The translations under genes were made by a program, and so were the position numbers. Positions 21,539 through 46,082 of a stretch of DNA of 64,000 nt are shown here, piece after piece. Source of the DNA: Zarea fungicola (lineage: Eukaryota; Ascomycota; Sordariomycetes; Hypocreales; Cordycipitaceae); the NCBI GenBank assembly GCA_900169235.1, contig FWCC01000028.1:71121-135120 (forward strand). Direction: 5' to 3'. Under the pieces are notes generated by a model. The model had not been told where the DNA came from and did no database searches. It worked only from the letters and a program-made list of their open reading frames with translations. The number at the start of each line of letters is the position of its first letter. The stretch's first letter is position 1.

Positions 21539-24500
21539 ATGACTTCCGTCGTCGATGAATATCTCGACGGTGCCCTCGATAATGACGACATTTTTCCCTG
21601 CAAAGGTTGCGGAGAGGTATGTATTCTACATCCTACATGCAATGCCACTGGCCGGCCGTCCACCTACTAACCAACTCTCTTCCCCTCCAGATTCTCGAAG
21701 AAGGAAAGGCTTTCGAATTAGGTATGCAGCTATTCACCTTGCCGTTTTACCTGCCGTTTTACCTGCCGTTTTACCCTACCCTAATGCTACCCACTTGTTA
21801 CCTGCTAACACCATTCAGCTGGTAACCGATGGCATCTCGACTGCTTCCGCTGCCACTCCTGCGGCACCCTCCTCGATTCCGACGCCAACCTCCTCCTCCT
21901 CGGCGACGGCTCCCTCATCTGCAACAACTGCACATATACCTGCAACGCCTGCAACAACAAAATAGAGGACCTCGCCATCCTCACCGGAGATCAGGCCTTT
22001 TGCTCCACATGCTTTCGCTGCCGCAACTGCAAACGCAAAATCGAGAACCTGCGTTATGCGCGCACATCACAGGGCATCTTTTGCATGGACTGCCACGAAA
22101 CCCTCATGGCTCGCCGACGGAAACGCGCCAAGGCCGCTGCCGCTGCAAAGGCCAGAGACAAGGAAAACTCACCCATGATCACCGACAAGTCCCTCCCTGC
22201 TCTGCCTCCAGAGAGTACCGCCGGCCAAGACCCTGCTGACCGGCACGATCCCGACTCGGACGCGGCCGGAAACACCTCCCCTCGCCCACACCATTCAGGC
22301 AAGAGCTCCAGAGCCGCCGCTCCCATCCCGGCCCGATCGCCTGAGCGCCCCTCCATCGACGCAGCCGCCAGCAACAAGGAGACTCTCACCTTGCCCTCAA
22401 GCACCTACAGGAAGAATCGCAACTCCACCATTCTTCCCCCAAGCGGCCATGCCAGCAACCAGAATGACTCTCCCGATGGCTTCTACATCTCCGTCGCCCT
22501 CGATCCTAATCCCAGTCCAAACGGCTCCGCCAGAACCCCGACAGAGGCTTTTGCTGATGCCTCCTTCAGAAAACCCAAGCCCGCCGCGGACAGGCGCCCT
22601 GATCCCGCCGCCTCGCCTCACATTGCATTCCAGGAAAAGAACCACCAGCAGTCTGCAAACCACATTGCGCAGGCCATGGCTCCCTCTCGCAAACTCTCCA
22701 AAAACGACAGGGATTCCATCAAGGCCTCGCCCGACACGGATGAATCTCGACCCCCCGAGCCACCTCGTAGCAAGCGTCTGCCCGCCACACGCACCAACAG
22801 CTCCCAATCTTCATCCATTGACCAGCCAAACGGCACATCCCGGCCTCGCGCATCTCAGGATACTAGGCCCGCAGACGATGATGATGCCCCGGCCTCACCT
22901 GAGCCCAAGTTGCCTCGATCAGGCCCGGCCGGCCCCATTCCCCGCAAGGAGGTGCCCTCTCTCACCCGTCCTCGTAAGTTTCCATGACCAACATCGGTTT
23001 CCCTCTTCAAAACATGTTGCTAACTCGGGCTCCAGCTATAAACGCCACAGAAAAGCCTGCACTAAGTGATACCTACATGCAACCCCGGGCCGCTCCCGCG
23101 CCTCCGGGCTCAAGAGGCTCTGTTGGAGCCAGAGAAGATGGTCAGTCTCCCAAAGTCTCGCCGAAACTACCTAGATGGAGTAGCGGCGCCGACTTTACGT
23201 TGGACGAGGACATGGCTAGAATCCTTGGCACGGATGAAGGCTCGTCCTCGCTCTTGCGTCGGGTTTCTAACGCGGTCCGACATGGTCGTACAGGCAGCAT
23301 CGAGTCTAGCCACAACCCCCGGCAGAGCCACACTCGCAGCATAAGCGAGACTACGCGATCGACCCTCTCGCCCCGATGGTCTCGAACGCCCCTCGTCGAC
23401 GATCACCTCGCCCACGACATTAGCGGCCCCATTGCATTCAACAAGGGTGAGGATCCTGCCATGCTGAAGCGCCAGCTCAGAAACTCGGAACAGCGCGTCG
23501 CCGAGCTCGAGAGGCAGTTCAACACGGAAAAGAACCTGCAAACCCTCGACAAGAAGCTCGTAGAGAAGCGCAAGACTGTGTCCGTCTTGGATACCCAAGC
23601 TGAGATTATGATCCGTCAGCTGGAAGTCCTCGCCGGATACGTCGAAAAGGCAAAGGAAACCAAGGCCCCCATTGACGTCCAGGAACTCGAAGACTCGGCC
23701 ATCAAGGACTTTGTCAATAAGCTCGAGCGCGTCAAGGCCGCCATGTCGTCGGAAATCGAAGAGCTACACGAAGAACGCGATAAGCTCATGGAGGAGAGAA
23801 GTCAGGCAGTGGCCGACCGTGATCGCGCTCTCATGGAATTTGAGCAGCTTTCCTCCAAGAATGCCCAGCTGGCCGACATGAACAACGAAATGACGCATCA
23901 GATCCAGGAGCGTTTCAAGTCCCAAGTCGGCGGCACATCCAACGGCCTTGGCATCTATGGCCACCGCGGCGCCGCTGGCTCCAACGTCAACCTCGACACG
24001 GCCAGCATGACGACGGGTGCCACGCTTGTGCCGGATGACGATGCCATTGTCGAGACTGGGCCTACCGTCGTCCACGTGCGCAAGGGCCAGGTCAAAAAGT
24101 TCAACTGGAAAAAGGGCTCCAAGACCATGGCGCAAAACGTCGCCAAGGGTGTCAACCGTGCCGTCGTTGCCTTTCAGCAAAACGAACGCGAGCGCGGCCA
24201 GATGGGTGGACAGCCTGGCGGCCTAACTGCCGATAACATAGGATTGCCATACAACATGACGGTCACCCAGGCAGACTTGTCCAGCACCATGCCTCTGGCG
24301 CACCCTGGCGCCGGCGGTCCAAACGCCGCCGCCAACAAGCAGCAAGGCTTTGGCTTCTTTGGAAAGAAGACCAACATGCCCAAGTCGGTCTCTGCCAATG
24401 CCGTCATGGCTCCCGTCGCAGCTGAGCCCCCCACCACATTGTTCGGCTCCGAACTCACCGAGCGCGCAGACCACGAGCGCCGACAAATACCAAGCGTAGT

Positions 24501-25096
24501 CACTCGCTGCATCGAGGAAGTCGAGCTGCGTGGCATGGACCAGGAGGGCATCTACCGCAAGACTGGCGGCAACTCTCAGGTGAACCAAATCAAGGACGGC
24601 TTTGAAAAGAGCGAAAACTTTGACATTTCCGATCCCGATCTGGACATTACTGCCGTGACCAGTGTACTGAAGCAGTACTTCCGCAAGCTGCCGATGCCGC
24701 TGTTGACGTTTGATGTCTATGACCGTGTCTTGGAATCAAATGGTACGTTTAAATTTTCCAAATATTATTAGTATTATTTGGATTATTTGGATTCTTGAAG
24801 CTAACAACTAGACAGCCATTTCCGACGAAGCAGAGCGCTGCTCGCAACTACGCAAGACGTTTGACATGATGCCTCAGAGCCACCGCGACTGCCTCGAGTT
24901 CCTCATGTTCCACTTGCAGCGTGTCGCCCAGCGCGAGCCGGAGAACCTCATGTCGCCCAAGAACCTGGCCGTCGTCTTTGCGCCCACGATTATGCGCGAC
25001 TTGAGCATTGAGAGGGAAATGACTGACATGCATGCCAAGAATATTGCCGTGCAGTTTGTCATTGAAAACAGTCATATTATCTTTGAAGAGGCGTGA
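21539..25096 (+). CDS. rga1: LIM-domain RhoGAP, Rga1-like
   Basis: Five exons: 21539-21616, 21691-21721, 21819-22973, 23036-24742 and 24816-25096. All junctions are GT-AG with matching phase, and the product is 1083 aa. Residues about 21-130 form two LIM zinc fingers: the first runs from CKGC to the CFRCHSC block, the second from CNACNNK to FCMDC. The cysteine pairs are assembled only when introns 1 and 2 are removed. A long Ser/Pro-rich linker and a coiled coil (about 563-715) follow. The RhoGAP domain (about 889-1083) has the arginine finger in GIYRKTGG near residue 928 and a conserved LMSPKNLAVVFAPTIM block. The family stimulates GTP hydrolysis by Cdc42/Rho GTPases at sites of polar growth and septation. 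Two LIM domains favour Rga1/Rga2 over Lrg1. Intron 2 carries a small tandem repeat. Confidence 0.92.
21741..21776 (+). repeat. Three-copy 12-nt tandem repeat inside rga1 intron 2
   Basis: The unit GCCGTTTTACCT is repeated three times head to tail between the donor and the branch region of the 97-nt intron (21722-21818). The last unit ends CCC instead of CCT. It does not disturb the splice sites. Confidence 0.85.
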
Positions 25097-25733: not shown

Positions 25734-28700
25734 TTACGCCTGCTGCTCACGCTGACGCTTCACAATATAATAAGTAATCAGGCTCTTGGGATCATCCTTG
25801 ACACCGCTGAGGGCTTCCCAAAACGTCACCTCGCCGACACGCGCATGCAGCGCCACGCAAAACTTGACGGCATCCATGCGCACGCCCGAATCGGTCGACT
25901 CGAGGCAGTGGCCCGCCAATCCAGTCAGCTGCGCAAGCTCCGTCGCCGTGGGCTGAAACTCGGTGCGCTTGTCCAGCATCTCCTTAAGCACATGCAGACC
26001 CATGCTGAGGGTGCGGCACCCCTCCGTCGTCGCGTCCGTCATGTCCTGCAGCTGGCGCGTCAGCACAACCACAATCTCGGAGCCGTCGCCCAGGCCGACC
26101 AGCTCATCGGCCAGCAGCTCCAGGCCGCTGACCACGTGTGCCCGCGCGTCGTAGGCGCTGCGTGTCTGCAGCAGCGCCTCGAGGCCCTTGGAGATGTGTG
26201 GCTGAAAGTTTTCCTTTTGGTTCTTGAGCAGAAGCTTGATGGTGGCAAGAATCTGCGCCTTGATGTCTTGGGCCTTGTCCGCGGCCAGGCTGCTCAGAGG
26301 ATTCTCAAGATACTTGAACAGCCCAAGTAAGAGGGCCTCGAACTTGTCATCCGTAAACACCGTCTTGCTGTCCCTGATGAGAGACTGCAGCTTGCGGAAT
26401 CCGTGGACTTCAAGAGACATGGCCTTGATCTTGGCTATGCCACTATCAAGGAGGCGAGAGTTTTGTCGCGTCTTGTCGGGAGAATCGGGCTCGGCAGGAG
26501 CGGCAGTCACTTCGGCTGCCTTTTGAAGCCTGGCCGCATCCTCGTTGACAGGCTTGTCCTCCAAAACAGGAATGGACAGCTCAGGCTTGGGCGTTGTCTG
26601 CATCTCCGTATCCGGGTCCTCATACACTGTCAGGGGCTCAGCATGGCGCTGTGGCTCGACTTGGCGTACGATTGTGGCCATCACTGGCGTTGGTGAATCA
26701 GGGACCTCCGCATCAACGAGATCATCTGTATCGACCACAATGGTAGAGGCTGATTCAAGGCTGGGCATGCTCGGCACGACGAGGCTAATATCCTCGTTGC
26801 CCTTGGTAGGTGAGGGTCGTAGCGCAAGGGGTCTTCCAGGGCTAAGGCGTGCTGGGCTTGAACCGAGCATCTCCTCGTGAGGCATTCGTGGCTTCCCAGG
26901 GCTAGTCCGGGGCGAGACGACTCTCGGCTTGGCCCCGGTTCTCGAAGTCGGCGAAGGAATACTAGAGTCACTATTATGGGAAACATGGCCAGGGCGGGTG
27001 CGGGAGACGAGCTTCTTTGGCGTCGTATCCTTGACTCTCGGTGTCTGGCCTCTGGTTTTGAGCAACTCGGGGCTATTGATCTCTATTGATCCAGGTTGGT
27101 CGCGCACGGAATACGGGCCGGCAGTGGCAGGTCGGGTCATCTCTGGACGTCTCCTGGACGGTCGCATTGGTGCAACGGACATGCCACCAGCATTGACAGA
27201 TATGGTGGATTCCGGTCGTGTTCTTGATACTGGCTTTGGTGCGGCGGCCGAATGCGTGGAGAGTGTGGATTGGCTGGACGAGTGTGAGGTAGGGCGAACG
27301 GGTGATAGCTGGGCCATTGCAGAGCCAGGACGAGGCGGTAACTTTTGGGCAGCCATGGCCCTTTTCTGCGCCAGCATTGTCTCGCGAATGTTGGGTCTGC
27401 TGGTCGTCTTTGACCTGGAAAGGCTGCTGCCGGGTCGAGCAGCTTCTGTTTTCTTGGGAGAGTTTGGATTGCTGGGGTCCTTGTTGAGAAGCTTCTGCGC
27501 TGTGGCATCCAAATCTTCCATTATACTAGGCCAATGAGATTAGTTTGATTCGTCAAAGAGGTAGACAAAACTCACGCATCAGCTCGGGCAGGCCACACTG
27601 CCCAAAAGGTCCAATATGTAGCACGCATCTTTTCTCGAACACCTGGGTTGGCATCGGCAAGGCCCTTCTTCAGACACTTTTCCATGAGGTCGACTCCGCC
27701 CGTATGCTCAATATGGTGCTTGTTGCCCTCGACCTTTCTGATCATTGTCTTGAGCCAAACGGATGTGTACAGCCGAGGCTGAACATTCTTGTCCTGGCAT
27801 GCGCCCCAAATGTGTTGCATCAGTCGAGGAGTGTATGAAAGGCGGCTGAATAACGTGTCAATGGTGGTACATGCCATTTGTGAAGCAATCTTCTTGGTGG
27901 CTGCAGTCATCTTAAGGAGAGCCTGCATCAGCAATTCGGCCATGGGTTCCATGGCGGGGCCAAAGGTAAGAGCAATGTCTTCAATCAGGGCGCAGGCTTC
28001 CTTGGACAAGCTTGTTCTGAGCGAAGTCAGAGACTTGAGAATGCCGTCAAGCATGGCGCGCAAGCCATTGAGAAACGTGTCGTGAAAGTCTGACGCGGCG
28101 TTTCCGGCATTGAGTCGACGCAAAGTAGTCATGCCCTGCTCTCGCTTCTGCCAATTCTGCTCTGTTTCACGACCCTCGTACTCCCAAGCCATGCTTTTGA
28201 AGACGTCGTCCAGCTCACGGTTGGTGTTGACATATTGGGGTTCGACAGGGTCTGACTGGGACTCGGTGACAGCGGGAGTGATTGGGCGCTCAACCGATAC
28301 GGACGAAACACTGGCGGCAAGATGAGGCCGGCTCGTCGTGGTGGGTGGAGCGGGCGCAGACGGTGTCTCTGAGCGGGTTCCGCCGGGAGCCAGTTCCTTA
28401 ACAATGGCTTGCTCAATGGCTGGACGGACTTTATAGTTTTTGAGTTGTCGCTTCAGATCCGACTTGGCGGTATTGGGCGCATTTCTGCATGGCAGTTAGC
28501 ATGATGCGGCAGAAGAATGTGACTACCCACGTACCGGAAGAGCTCGATAACAGTGTGCTTGGCGGCATCGCGAACCATGCCGTCGGCATCCTCGAGCAGC
28601 TCCATAAGCAGTGGTACGTAAGTGCGGAACTGCAGTCCATGCTCTTGGTGCATCTGCGCACGATTAGCTACAAGGTTTTTAAGTCTGACAGTGGTCGCAT

Positions 28701-31571: not shown

Positions 31572-32380
31572 GCCTGTAGACTGCACACTTGCGCCTTTAA
31601 TATACCTGAAGCTGAAGCTGAAAGTATACTTGCCTAACCTCTGAAGAGGTTCCTTTGATGCCTCTCGTAGACATTGCCGCCACAGCGTGCTACGTACATG
31701 ATAATCTCTCAAGGTGGCAGGCTTACAAATATCAAGACAACGGAAATGTTGCCACTATTCGCTCTCAAAATCCGACGTAGCAGCAAGGGAATTATACACG
31801 TCTTGTTGAAGCTTAATCCGTTTTCTTGCTTCTTCGGCTTAATCGTGCCGTGTGGCGGGCTCCGTTGGCTTTGGTGCAGTGGGTGGTGCAATTACCAAGA
31901 TTTTGGGCTGACAAACTCGAGGAACCGGTCGGATATACTGGCGCAACTCCGACATATGATAATAGTTAATTATTGTCCACCTAATTTTTAGAAGAGCTGA
32001 CCATCTTGCCAACGTAACAGATGCTGCCTTGTTTCTCGTTTACTTCGTATGTAAACGGGTGTTTCTACAGTAAGCAATTAATTTCATGGCGCCAGGGCTG
32101 AACTATCGCCGCGGTCGAGATCCAATAAGAGTTGCGAATGCTTGTAGTAATGCTGCTTAGTGGCAACGAGAGCCACGATGCCGGGCTTGTCATTTTTAAT
32201 ATCAATTACATAGTCTCGACCTTATTCAAGGCGGAGACTTCCGTCCGCCTATTAGAGTTCCTGTCTCGAGTTTACTGATCACTCGACATGCCAAGCAGCT
32301 CTTTAGAATCAATTCAAGAACATTATCAAGTAAGCCAATAATTTTGTACATTCAACTACAGTACGAAAAATAAAAAAAAA

Positions 32381-32412
<32 letters not shown>

Positions 32413-32537
32413 AACAACACCAAAGTCCAAATTCCACTGATTGACTTGCGCGCGACGAGCCAAACAGGGAGTGGCTGCACCAAAAGGCGCTAACACAAGA
32501 ATTGAGGACCAAAAAAATAGCACCGAAAGGTGGGAAT
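31572..32537. other. Intergenic region with A-rich microsatellite
   Basis: No supported gene. An (TAAAAAAA)n-type microsatellite lies near 32366-32414. A 105-residue open frame at 31674-31991 lacks any recognisable feature. Confidence 0.5.
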
Positions 32538-32673
32538 TGAACCCAAGGCGATTCGAACGCCTACTGTGTGGATGTTAGACAATGCCTCGCAGAAAGTCTC
32601 AAGAGTAGAAACGTACACCTTCAGGAAATTCCAGGAACTGGAATCTGACGCGCTACCGTTGCGCCATGGGTCC
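32538..32673 (-). tRNA. tRNA-Trp (anticodon CCA), copy 1, interrupted by two insertions
   Basis: Read on the minus strand from 32673. The acceptor stem GGACCCA pairs with TGGGTTC (one G-U), followed by discriminator A. The D arm is GCGC-AACGGTA-GCGC and carries the conserved A14, G18, G19 and A21. The anticodon stem TCAGA/CCTGA has one A-C mismatch at 31-39. The anticodon is CCA, with U33. The T arm is AGGCG-TTCGAAT-CGCCT. Two insertions interrupt it. The first is an 11-nt intron (32637-32627) directly after position 37, the normal place for nuclear tRNA introns; its TGG can pair with the CCA anticodon. The second is a 53-nt insertion (32616-32564) in the variable loop, bounded by GTACGT and ACAG. 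Removing both leaves 72 nt. A TTTTTTT terminator lies about 20 nt downstream. Confidence 0.8.
32564..32616 (-). other. GT-AG insertion in the variable loop of tRNA-Trp copy 1
   Basis: 53 nt starting GTACGT, with CTAAC 16 nt before the 3' end, and ending CCACACAG. These are the donor, branch and acceptor signals of the window's mRNA introns, and the length is also typical. Excision joins AGGT to T and restores a standard five-base variable loop. The first six and last 15 nt match the equivalent insertion in copy 2, whereas the interior is unrelated. Confidence 0.65.
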
Positions 32674-34171: not shown

Positions 34172-35786
34172 TCATGGGGCATATTCACCATCAATCTTTT
34201 CCCAGTTTTCCAAAAATCCCTTGTAAAACAATACGCCCAGCCCAGGATCCAGCGCGCCCGTCGTCGCCCGCACGGAATGCATACTAAGCTGCACCAGCCC
34301 CGCGTCCGTCGACCGGCATCCCATCATGGTCGACATGACGGGACCGATGCTGCCCCCCGCGCGGACGTCGTTGCGCGCCTGGTACGGCTGCGTCTTGGCG
34401 CCGATGAGCTCGCCGACGCGCATGAGCACCGACGCGGACACGGCGTCGGTGCTGAACCCGCCGTTGGGGTCGTTCTTGATGGCGATGCCCGTGTTGAGCT
34501 GCGGTACGTGGCCCTCGGCGTAGTCGTCGAGGAAGTTGGGATGCCCCGCGTGCGACACGTCCGAGGCGATGAGGAACGACTTGGCGTACGTCTGCGCCAG
34601 GAGACCGGCCGCCTCCCCTCGGGGGACGTTGGACGACGCGGCGCCGGCTAGGGCTTCCACCGCGCACTCTATCGTGGAGGACAGGAAGTTGCTCTGGGCG
34701 CCCTGGCGCGTCTTGTTGCCAATCTCCTCATTGTCAAACAGGCTCACCAGCTTTATGTATCCATCGTCCTCCCGCTGCTGCGAGACGAGCAGGCCCATCA
34801 TCGCCGCCCACGAGCACAGCTTGTCGTCGAGGCGGCCGGCGGTGATGAGCTCCCTGCGCATGCCAAAGACCTGCGCCGGCTGAAAGTCGTACAGCTCGAG
34901 ATCCCAGCTGGTGATTTGCGTGTACGAGATGCCAAGCTCCCCCGCAATCAGCTGCACCAGCTCCGGCGGCTGCCCGTGGATGAACGAGTCGGGCCTCCCC
35001 AGCGGCTGCCGCTCCGCCTCGGTGTACGCGCTGGCCAGGCCGATGATGGGCGCGGTCCTCGTCTCCAGGTTCCCGTCGCCGAGGAACTGCTGCCGGTCGA
35101 GGTGCGCCGCAATGGTGGCCACCTTGGCCACGGGCCAGTCCAGCTTGACCAGCCGCGTCGAGCATTTGCCCGTGTCCGGGTCGCGCACCACCACGCGGCC
35201 GCCGATGCCGAGGTCGCGGTCCCACCACGTCTTGTTGAGCCCCTGCGCGTACGGCGCGACGCCGAGCTGGATGCACCCGGCCTCGTTGATGGGCTTGGCG
35301 CTCACGGGCTTGAGCTTGGCCGTGTTGGCGTCAATGTGGCCGGCGACCATGCCGATGCCGTTGCCCGGCTTGTAGGCGCGGCCGACGATGAAGGCGATGA
35401 TGGCGCTGCCATTGCGCGTGGTGAAGTACTTGCCGCCAGGGCGTATCTTGCCGGCCCACGATTCTCTAGACGGGAGCTGCCAATTCAACTTGATTAATTT
35501 TCGGGGTAATTCCTCGCGTAATGTTTCGTCAAAATGATGACATGATTGTGGGACTCACCTCTTCGAAACCACCCGCGTCGAGCCTGGCCTTGCAGTAGTC
35601 GACGACGTGAAATACTGTAGGACATTGCCTCATAAAGTCGCAAAATGGCTGTGTGAATTGTTCTGGCTTATAGTTCTTGTCCTCGTGACCGGCTGTCGTC
35701 GCGATCACCGGCTGTCGGTGAACCAGTCCCAGAGAGTTGGCAGAGGCCACGGAGCCTGCTATTGACGCTGTTCTGTTTCGTGCCAT
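34172..35786 (-). CDS. lap4: M18 vacuolar aminopeptidase I
   Basis: Two exons, 35786-35559 and 35488-34172, with a 70-nt GT-AG intron in phase 0. The product is 514 aa, the same length as yeast Lap4/Ape1. Metal-site motifs of family M18 are present: GHIDANTAKLKP (H127 and D129), a DRDLGIGGR block, LFDNEEIGNKTRQGA with the catalytic Glu pair, ASDVSHAGHPNF, and the C-terminal MHSVRATTG histidine. KPVSAKPINEAG and LNKTWWDRDLGIGG favour Lap4 over the cytosolic aspartyl aminopeptidase Ape4. M18 enzymes are dodecameric zinc exopeptidases. Yeast Ape1 reaches the vacuole by the Cvt/autophagy route through an N-terminal propeptide; residues 1-45 here could play that part, but I see no clear amphipathic helix match. 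The second exon starts TTG, so it is not a separate gene. Confidence 0.9.
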
Positions 35787-45770: not shown

Positions 45771-45793
45771 GGACCCATGGCGCAACGGTAGCG

Positions 45794-45847
45794 GTTAGTA
45801 CCCTAGACTCGCAGCTGTTAGATCAACTGTACTAACTTCCTCATCAG
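45794..45847 (+). other. GT-AG insertion in the D arm of tRNA-Trp copy 2
   Basis: 54 nt, absent from copy 1 at the identical position. It starts GTTAGT, contains the perfect yeast-type branch sequence TACTAAC 18 nt before the end, and ends CATCAG. Excision restores GGTAGCG-CGTCAG, exactly as in copy 1. An alternative boundary shifted by one base is equally compatible with the repair, but only the chosen one gives GT...AG. Confidence 0.65.
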
Positions 45848-45883
45848 CGTCAGATTCCAGTTACAATGGAGTTTCCTGAAGGT

Positions 45884-45938
45884 GTACGTGCTAGCTAAAC
45901 GAGTACCTCCAACACACATGTGCCTAACATCCACACAG
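45884..45938 (+). other. GT-AG insertion in the variable loop of tRNA-Trp copy 2
   Basis: 55 nt between AGGT and TAGGCG. It begins GTACGT and ends CTAACATCCACACAG, both shared with copy 1; the 34 nt between are unrelated to copy 1. Conserved ends with a free interior is how functional short introns evolve. Confidence 0.65.
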
Positions 45939-46009
45939 TAGGCGTTCGAATCGCCTTGGGTTCAATTCCCACCATTCGGTGAACAATTTTTTTTTGATTC
46001 CCCCATCTA

Positions 46010-46082
46010 ATAATGGAGTTTCCTGAAGGCTAGGCTTGAATGCCTTGGGTTTAATTCACACGTTTCTGTGACTTAATTTTTT
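46010..46082 (+). pseudogene. Partial, decayed third tRNA-Trp copy without the variable-loop insertion
   Basis: Starts with AATGGAGTTTCCTGAAGG, which matches the 3' end of the anticodon intron and the 3' anticodon stem of copy 2. It then passes directly into TAGGC TTGAATGCCT TGGGTTT. The 55-nt variable-loop insertion is missing exactly at its predicted boundaries, apart from a T-to-C change at the junction. The T arm has lost three bases. A CACA/TGTG hairpin and a TTTTTT run follow, as in the other copies. Confidence 0.6.

Follow-up and report, generated by a model that had tools for sequence, protein, structure and literature searches.

We found that a tRNA-Trp(CCA) gene of Zarea fungicola, located at 45771–45964 (+) of the window (the 64,000 nt stretch of contig C357 that was analyzed), is 194 nt long and, as judged from sequence and alignment, consists of 72 nt of exon sequence and three inserts. 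Two of the inserts (54 and 55 nt) are most probably U2-type spliceosomal introns within a nuclear tRNA gene transcribed by RNA polymerase III (Pol III), and the third (13 nt) would be an ordinary tRNA intron; going by the sequence signals described below, we place the probability of this reading at roughly 0.88. What was observed here is the identity of the exons between copies, the form of the insert ends, the presence or absence of inserts at the same site in paralogous genes, and the match of the inserts to mRNA introns of the same genome. The genome searches covered 43.1 Mb in 456 contigs.

Organization of the Window tRNA-Trp Gene

The exons of the gene, all on the + strand, are 23, 13, 10, and 26 nt long. 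The first (45771–45793) contains the 5′ strand of the acceptor stem, the A box, and the D arm to approximately position 24, and it is identical in all four of the tRNA-Trp genes that we found. It is followed by a 54 nt GT-AG insert in the D arm (45794–45847, +; GTTAGT..TACTAAC..CATCAG), in which the putative branch-site A lies 12 nt before the end. The next exon (45848–45860) supplies the 5′ strand of the anticodon stem, the CCA anticodon, and position 37, and it adjoins a 13 nt insert at the canonical 37/38 position (45861–45873, +) that pairs with the anticodon; ARAGORN describes this insert as i(37,13), and four of four central-helix pairs are present. Alignment and identity between copies define both this exon and the one that follows (45874–45883), which contains the 3′ strand of the anticodon stem and the variable loop. 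A 55 nt GT-AG insert then interrupts the variable loop (45884–45938, +; GTACGT..CCTAAC..CACACAG), with the putative branch-site A 11 nt before the end. The last exon (45939–45964) carries the T arm (B box core GTTCGAATC), the 3′ strand of the acceptor stem, and the discriminator A, and in a pattern search of the genome its last 20 nt had four exact matches, all of them in the tRNA-Trp genes. A T9 run resembling a Pol III terminator is present at 45987–45995 (+), and TATA-like stretches were seen by eye upstream of the tRNA-Trp genes in the alignment.

The original prediction proposed that one tRNA-Trp gene contains three inserts, two of them of the GT-AG type, and sequence and alignment confirm both the sizes (54, 13, and 55 nt) and the signals. 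The further proposal that these represent three introns in a single nuclear tRNA gene, two of them apparently of the mRNA type, is supported at the level of sequence.

Four tRNA-Trp Genes with Identical Exons and Different Inserts

The window gene had been described as a second tRNA-Trp gene; it is one of four rather than the second of two. Copy 1, which was identified by an Rfam match and by alignment, lies at 32538–32673 (−) of the window. It has an 11 nt canonical anticodon intron (32627–32637, −; assigned from its sequence and a pairing test) and a 53 nt variable-loop GT-AG insert (32564–32616, −) that obeys the signal rule described below, and it lacks the D-arm insert. A DNA search of the genome revealed two further full copies, on contigs C341 and C318, each of which has both GT-AG inserts. 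The variable-loop insert is therefore found in 4/4 of the tRNA-Trp(CCA) genes and the D-arm insert in 3/4. The canonical 37/38 inserts of the four genes are 11–14 nt long, and ARAGORN agrees on their position for two.

No intronless tRNA-Trp gene was found in the genome with a joined-exon query: none of the matches crossed the variable-loop junction, and the D-arm junction was crossed only by copy 1. A pattern representing the insert-free variable-loop junction had zero matches in the genome, and it missed even the truncated copy that lies downstream of the window gene, because there are gaps at that place in the truncated copy. When three mismatches were allowed, the 3′ exon pattern gave two extra matches, compared with one for its reversed-pattern control. 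A tRNA family search of the genome, in which 63 of 1250 candidates were scored, led to 48 loci that were typed with ARAGORN, and none of the 48 is a nuclear tRNA-Trp gene; a tRNA with the anticodon TCA on an apparently mitochondrial contig was called SeC. A further tRNA-Trp gene that is strongly diverged, or that is absent from the 456-contig assembly, may still exist. As expected, the tRNA-Trp patterns had no match in viral contigs or in the prokaryote genome collection.

It had been claimed that the exons of the window gene are identical to those of copy 1 even though the inserts differ. This is correct, and all four genes share the same 72 nt. Against this complete exon identity (100%), the interior of the variable-loop insert has a mean identity of 44% in the four genes, and the D-arm insert is 66% identical overall in the three genes that have it. 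The identity of the flanks is 50% on the 5′ side and 44% on the 3′ side. All four genes share the same 5′ site in the variable-loop insert (100% identity), and the last 17 nt of this insert (45922–45938 and the equivalent positions of its relatives) are 97% identical, which is far more conservation than a branch site and a CAG would need. The combination of identical exons with diverged insert interiors supports the earlier suggestion that selection acts on the processed RNA. Rather than lacking conserved ends, the inserts keep their ends in every copy, and these ends recur in tRNA genes for threonine, leucine, and proline. Purifying selection on the spliced product would be a simpler explanation of this pattern than gene conversion, because conversion tracts would need to break off at each insert boundary.

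Similar Inserts in tRNA-Thr, tRNA-Leu, and tRNA-Pro Genes

We searched the genome with patterns that combined the branch-site motif, CAG, and the B box, each with a reversed-pattern control. The first pattern gave eight matches (four Trp, one Thr, and three others; one match for the control), and the second gave six (one Leu, two Pro, and three others; two for the control). The others, on contigs C315, C344, and C456 for the first pattern and C275, C370, and C315 for the second, were inspected and are not tRNA genes. Five of the seven matches to the third pattern (four for the control) were dropped as not being tRNA genes, three after reading of the sequence (C208, C377, and C425) and two on the match alone (C301 and C424). 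In total, we identified 11 GT-AG inserts of 53–69 nt at five sites in eight tRNA genes; the number of genes is a lower bound because the patterns seek one kind of layout.

The tRNA-Thr(CGU) gene on C172 has a 69 nt insert (GTAAGT...GCTAAC...CAG) inside the anticodon (CG|T), and its exons match those of an intronless gene on C170 at 72/72 positions. The anticodon is also divided in a tRNA-Leu(UAA) gene (G000:C98:27449-27604), in this case by a 58 nt insert (GTAAGC...ACTAAC...GCGCAG) that is directly followed by an ordinary tRNA intron. The 3′ exon of this gene occurs only once in the genome when up to three mismatches are allowed, and this is the only tRNA-Leu(UAA) gene that we found. In two tRNA-Pro(AGG) genes (G000:C299:273338 and G000:C305:188794), a 58 nt insert (GTAAGT...CTAAC...CAG) splits the A box. 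The insert is absent from two other tRNA-Pro(AGG) genes, both on C135, and from two tRNA-Pro(UGG) genes (C301 and C326), and in the gene at C135:148328 the 5′ exon sequence corresponds exactly to that of the interrupted genes with the insert taken out. Presence and absence of an insert are exact with respect to the exons for the tRNA-Trp D arm, for tRNA-Thr (C172 versus C170), and for tRNA-Pro (C299 and C305 versus C135). No target-site duplications were seen by eye at the Thr, Pro, and Trp D-arm sites. The insert-bearing Trp, Leu, and Pro genes also contain a canonical intron of the 37/38 type, which would therefore have to be removed from the same precursor.

The Inserts Carry the Signals of Protein-Gene Introns

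All 11 of the inserts in tRNA genes start with GTNNGY, contain a CTAAY motif in which the A lies 11–12 nt before the 3′ end, and end with CAG. When this rule was applied to every stretch of 50–75 nt in the window, it was obeyed by six of 3,324,750, and the six places are the three tRNA-Trp inserts and three introns of protein genes. Since the rule was derived from the tRNA inserts, the protein-gene introns constitute an independent test of it. Chance matches to the rule in a Markov-simulated window numbered 1.55 ± 1.24 (maximum 4) over 40 runs, and the reversed window had no match.

Two of the three protein-gene introns lie in a RhoGAP gene and were assigned by homology: a 62 nt intron at 22974–23035 (+; GTAAGT..GCTAAC..CAG, branch A 12 nt before the end) and a 73 nt intron at 24743–24815 (+; GTACGT..GCTAAC..CAG, branch A 11 nt before the end). 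A Beauveria homologue (P0126) aligns through both joins in one piece, and the homologues P0122 and P0124 stop at, or shift frame near, the second join. The third (28485–28534, −; 50 nt, GTACGT..GCTAAC..CAG) was assigned because one reading frame is open across the join. An intron of an aminopeptidase gene (about 35477–35558, probably 82 nt) has GTGAGT and CAG and lacks CTAAY, and the rule thus does not cover all introns of the genome. No intron was seen in the GH20 gene of the window. The lengths of the protein-gene introns in the window (50, 62, 73, and probably 82 nt) may be compared with 53–69 nt for the tRNA inserts, and the signals considered here do not distinguish the tRNA inserts from the mRNA introns within these 64 kb. 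The usual exon context before a 5′ splice site is CAG/. The bases that precede the five insert sites are G, T, G, T, and T, so this context is mostly unmatched in the tRNA genes. Among named relatives, two proteins encoded in the window are nearest to those of Aphanocladium, Lecanicillium, and Beauveria (79%–88% identity), and a third is nearest to those of Purpureocillium (70%) and Cladobotryum. These matches agree with a placement in the Hypocreales, and those of the first two proteins make the Cordycipitaceae the probable family.

Removal of the Inserts Restores Recognition by ARAGORN

With the settings that we used, ARAGORN called no tRNA in the window, and the Rfam tRNA model at its gathering score detected only copy 1. 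We compared the output of ARAGORN (introns of up to 60 nt) for the eight genes before and after removal of the GT-AG inserts. Before removal, one of the eight was recognized, and this gene (copy 1) was assigned a wrong 43 nt intron. After removal, all eight were called as tRNAs and six had the right identity; the window gene was reported as tRNA-Trp(cca) i(37,13), and two of the tRNA-Trp genes were reported as tRNA-??? with the four-letter anticodon ccag. The tRNA-Leu(UAA) gene with its insert left in was miscalled as tRNA-Thr with a wrong intron. The minimum-energy fold that RNAfold gave for the spliced tRNA-Trp sequence is not a full cloverleaf.

Alternative Explanations

The GT-AG inserts lie in the D arm, the anticodon, or the variable loop (or, in tRNA-Pro, the A box) and not at 37/38, and they might be ectopic introns of the archaeal or red algal type, in which bulge-helix-bulge motifs guide cutting by the tRNA splicing endonuclease. 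We looked for such motifs by requiring a four-pair central helix and at least two outer-helix pairs in any of nine registers (the exact boundaries and one-base shifts). None of the 11 GT-AG inserts passed this test, compared with 4/4 of the tRNA-Trp anticodon introns, and the four-pair central helix alone was present in two of the 11. The canonical introns of two tRNA-Lys genes, included as controls, both failed, and the test is therefore only moderately sensitive. Moreover, one review describes tRNA genes of Cyanidioschyzon as highly disrupted and ectopic introns of the Guillardia nucleomorph as often forming no defined motif (PMC3978253), so the absence of the motif is not final. The presence of GTNNGY, CTAAY at 11–12 nt, and CAG in 11/11 inserts is nevertheless left unaccounted for by cleavage of this kind, which we regard as highly unlikely. 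The interrupted genes might instead be pseudogenes, with the tRNAs supplied by other, intact genes. Intact paralogues do exist for tRNA-Thr(CGU) and tRNA-Pro(AGG), and the division of the assembly into 456 contigs and the scoring of 63 of 1250 candidates in the tRNA survey leave some room for others; but no intact tRNA-Trp or tRNA-Leu(UAA) gene was found in the genome, and the tRNA-Trp exons have remained unchanged in four copies, with their insert ends kept, while the inserts and flanks diverged. These observations leave the pseudogene explanation a very slim chance.

Sequence alone does not tell which polymerase makes the precursor, and the introns could in principle belong to overlapping Pol II transcripts and be irrelevant to the tRNAs. 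This is scarcely credible given that the five unrelated sites are all inside tRNA bodies, that removal of the inserts gives sequences recognized as tRNAs by ARAGORN in 8/8 cases, and that the flanks vary between copies whereas the T runs follow the genes. Self-splicing group I or group II introns were rejected on the basis of size: the catalytic core of such introns needs at least some hundred nucleotides, the inserts are 53–69 nt long, and the window contains no such Rfam match. A further alternative concerns origin only, and attributes the introns to recent copying of a mobile introner family. The existence of several insertion sites within one genome fits this idea, as does the similarity of the branch-to-end segments in the Trp variable-loop, Thr, and Pro C299 introns (CTAACATC...CAG). 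Against it, neither the Thr intron nor the Leu gene searched together with its intron, the two queries used, had another match in the genome, and we consider an introner origin unlikely. Intron gain into tRNA genes, for example by reverse splicing, is probably how the inserts arose.

A Predicted Pathway with Two Splicing Systems

If the GT-AG inserts are spliceosomal introns, Pol III would transcribe the tRNA-Trp precursor from its internal A and B boxes to the T run. U1 would recognize GTTAGT and GTACGT, U2 would recognize TACTAAC and CCTAAC, and the spliceosome would excise both GT-AG introns as lariats. Once they are gone, the D arm and variable loop would be whole again, as would the tRNA body, which is what the tRNA splicing endonuclease measures, and this enzyme and tRNA ligase would then excise the anticodon intron. 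We propose that the spliceosome acts first, since the endonuclease recognizes a shape that the D-arm and anticodon inserts destroy. The intron that splits the A box of tRNA-Pro should weaken Pol III transcription of those two genes.

Such introns occur in each of the four tRNA-Trp genes and in the single tRNA-Leu(UAA) gene that we found, so the translation of the codons UGG and UUA should depend on their removal. From the sequences, we lean toward a broader proposal: the spliceosome would be obligatory for the production of every tRNA-Trp and of the only tRNA-Leu(UAA), with the endonuclease acting afterward; its activity could limit the translation of UGG and UUA; and the phenomenon may be common in filamentous ascomycetes, where it may go unnoticed because tRNA finders overlook the genes concerned or call them wrongly. 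Splicing of these introns would mean that the spliceosome acts on an essential class of Pol III RNA and would place two unrelated splicing systems one after the other on a single precursor. It would also turn the tRNA paralogues that either have or lack an intron at a given base into a clean test bed for intron gain. The annotation of tRNA genes would then need repair.

Relation to Known Introns in Noncoding RNA Genes

The new element is that ordinary introns are predicted to interrupt tRNA genes: among the matches listed in the open-access literature searched (subscription papers and preprints being outside the scope of the search), none reports spliceosomal introns in this class of host gene. 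The closest precedent comes from fission yeast, where the U6 snRNA gene has an mRNA-type intron that has been attributed to reverse splicing (Tani and Ohshima, 1989, 1991, as cited in PMC10484740). In both cases, a spliceosomal intron resides, or in our case is predicted to reside, in a Pol III RNA with a structured noncoding product. U6 is itself a spliceosomal RNA and so has a natural link to the spliceosome, unlike the tRNAs described here, in which there are five sites and up to two introns plus a tRNA intron per gene. An mRNA-type intron has also been described in the nuclear 18S rDNA of deuteromycete fungi (Rogers et al., 1993, as cited in PMC11782384); that case likewise involves a spliceosomal-type intron in a fungal noncoding RNA gene, but the host is an rRNA gene transcribed by Pol I.

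According to a review, nuclear tRNA introns are exclusively at 37/38 (PMC3978253). Unlike these canonical introns, which are removed by the endonuclease, the GT-AG inserts are located elsewhere and lack the pairing for which we tested. Noncanonical positions are known from the tRNA genes of Cyanidioschyzon merolae, the Guillardia nucleomorph, and archaea, with several introns per gene in archaea, but these introns are mostly described as having bulge-helix-bulge motifs (PMC8450103, PMC3978253), whereas those found here have the signals of mRNA introns. They resemble three protein-gene introns of this fungus in size, 5′ site, branch site, branch-to-end distance, and CAG, and differ from them in that the host is a tRNA gene. 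A search for noncanonical introns is described for archaeal tRNAs in the account of tRNAscan-SE 2.0 (PMC8450103). A study of Aspergillus niger lists one tRNA-Trp gene, compared with 8–24 genes for 17 of 20 amino acids, and mentions the removal of 14 ARAGORN models with introns of more than 100 nt (PMC6108506); that the removed models or the lone tRNA-Trp gene reflect the same phenomenon is a guess.

Trailer and Truncated Copy Downstream of the tRNA-Trp Gene

Directly behind the window gene is a 17 nt 3′ trailer, ATTCCCACCATTCGGTG (45965–45981, +; 32521–32537 in copy 1), which has a mean identity of 96% in the four tRNA-Trp genes. It can form a CACC/GGTG hairpin that is no stronger than those of shuffled sequences (z = −0.5). 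Together with the end of the acceptor stem, the trailer forms a second perfect match to the B box, GGTTCAATTCC.

A truncated tRNA-Trp-like copy at 46012–46082 (+) starts inside the anticodon intron and contains the T arm, the trailer hairpin, and a T6 run. The variable-loop insert is absent from it at the exact site, and its start agrees at 18/18 bases with the window gene's own version of the anticodon intron. The truncated copy may be a relic of a splicing intermediate of the kind proposed above, produced by reverse transcription of a spliced precursor, or it may stem from an old partial duplication; the latter is considered because the part comprising the T arm and trailer is only 35/44 identical, with gaps. 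Its hairpin has changed pairs (CACA/TGTG). Behind copy 1, at approximately 32360–32415 (−), there is a row of T stretches of approximately 5–9 nt that are broken by single A residues.
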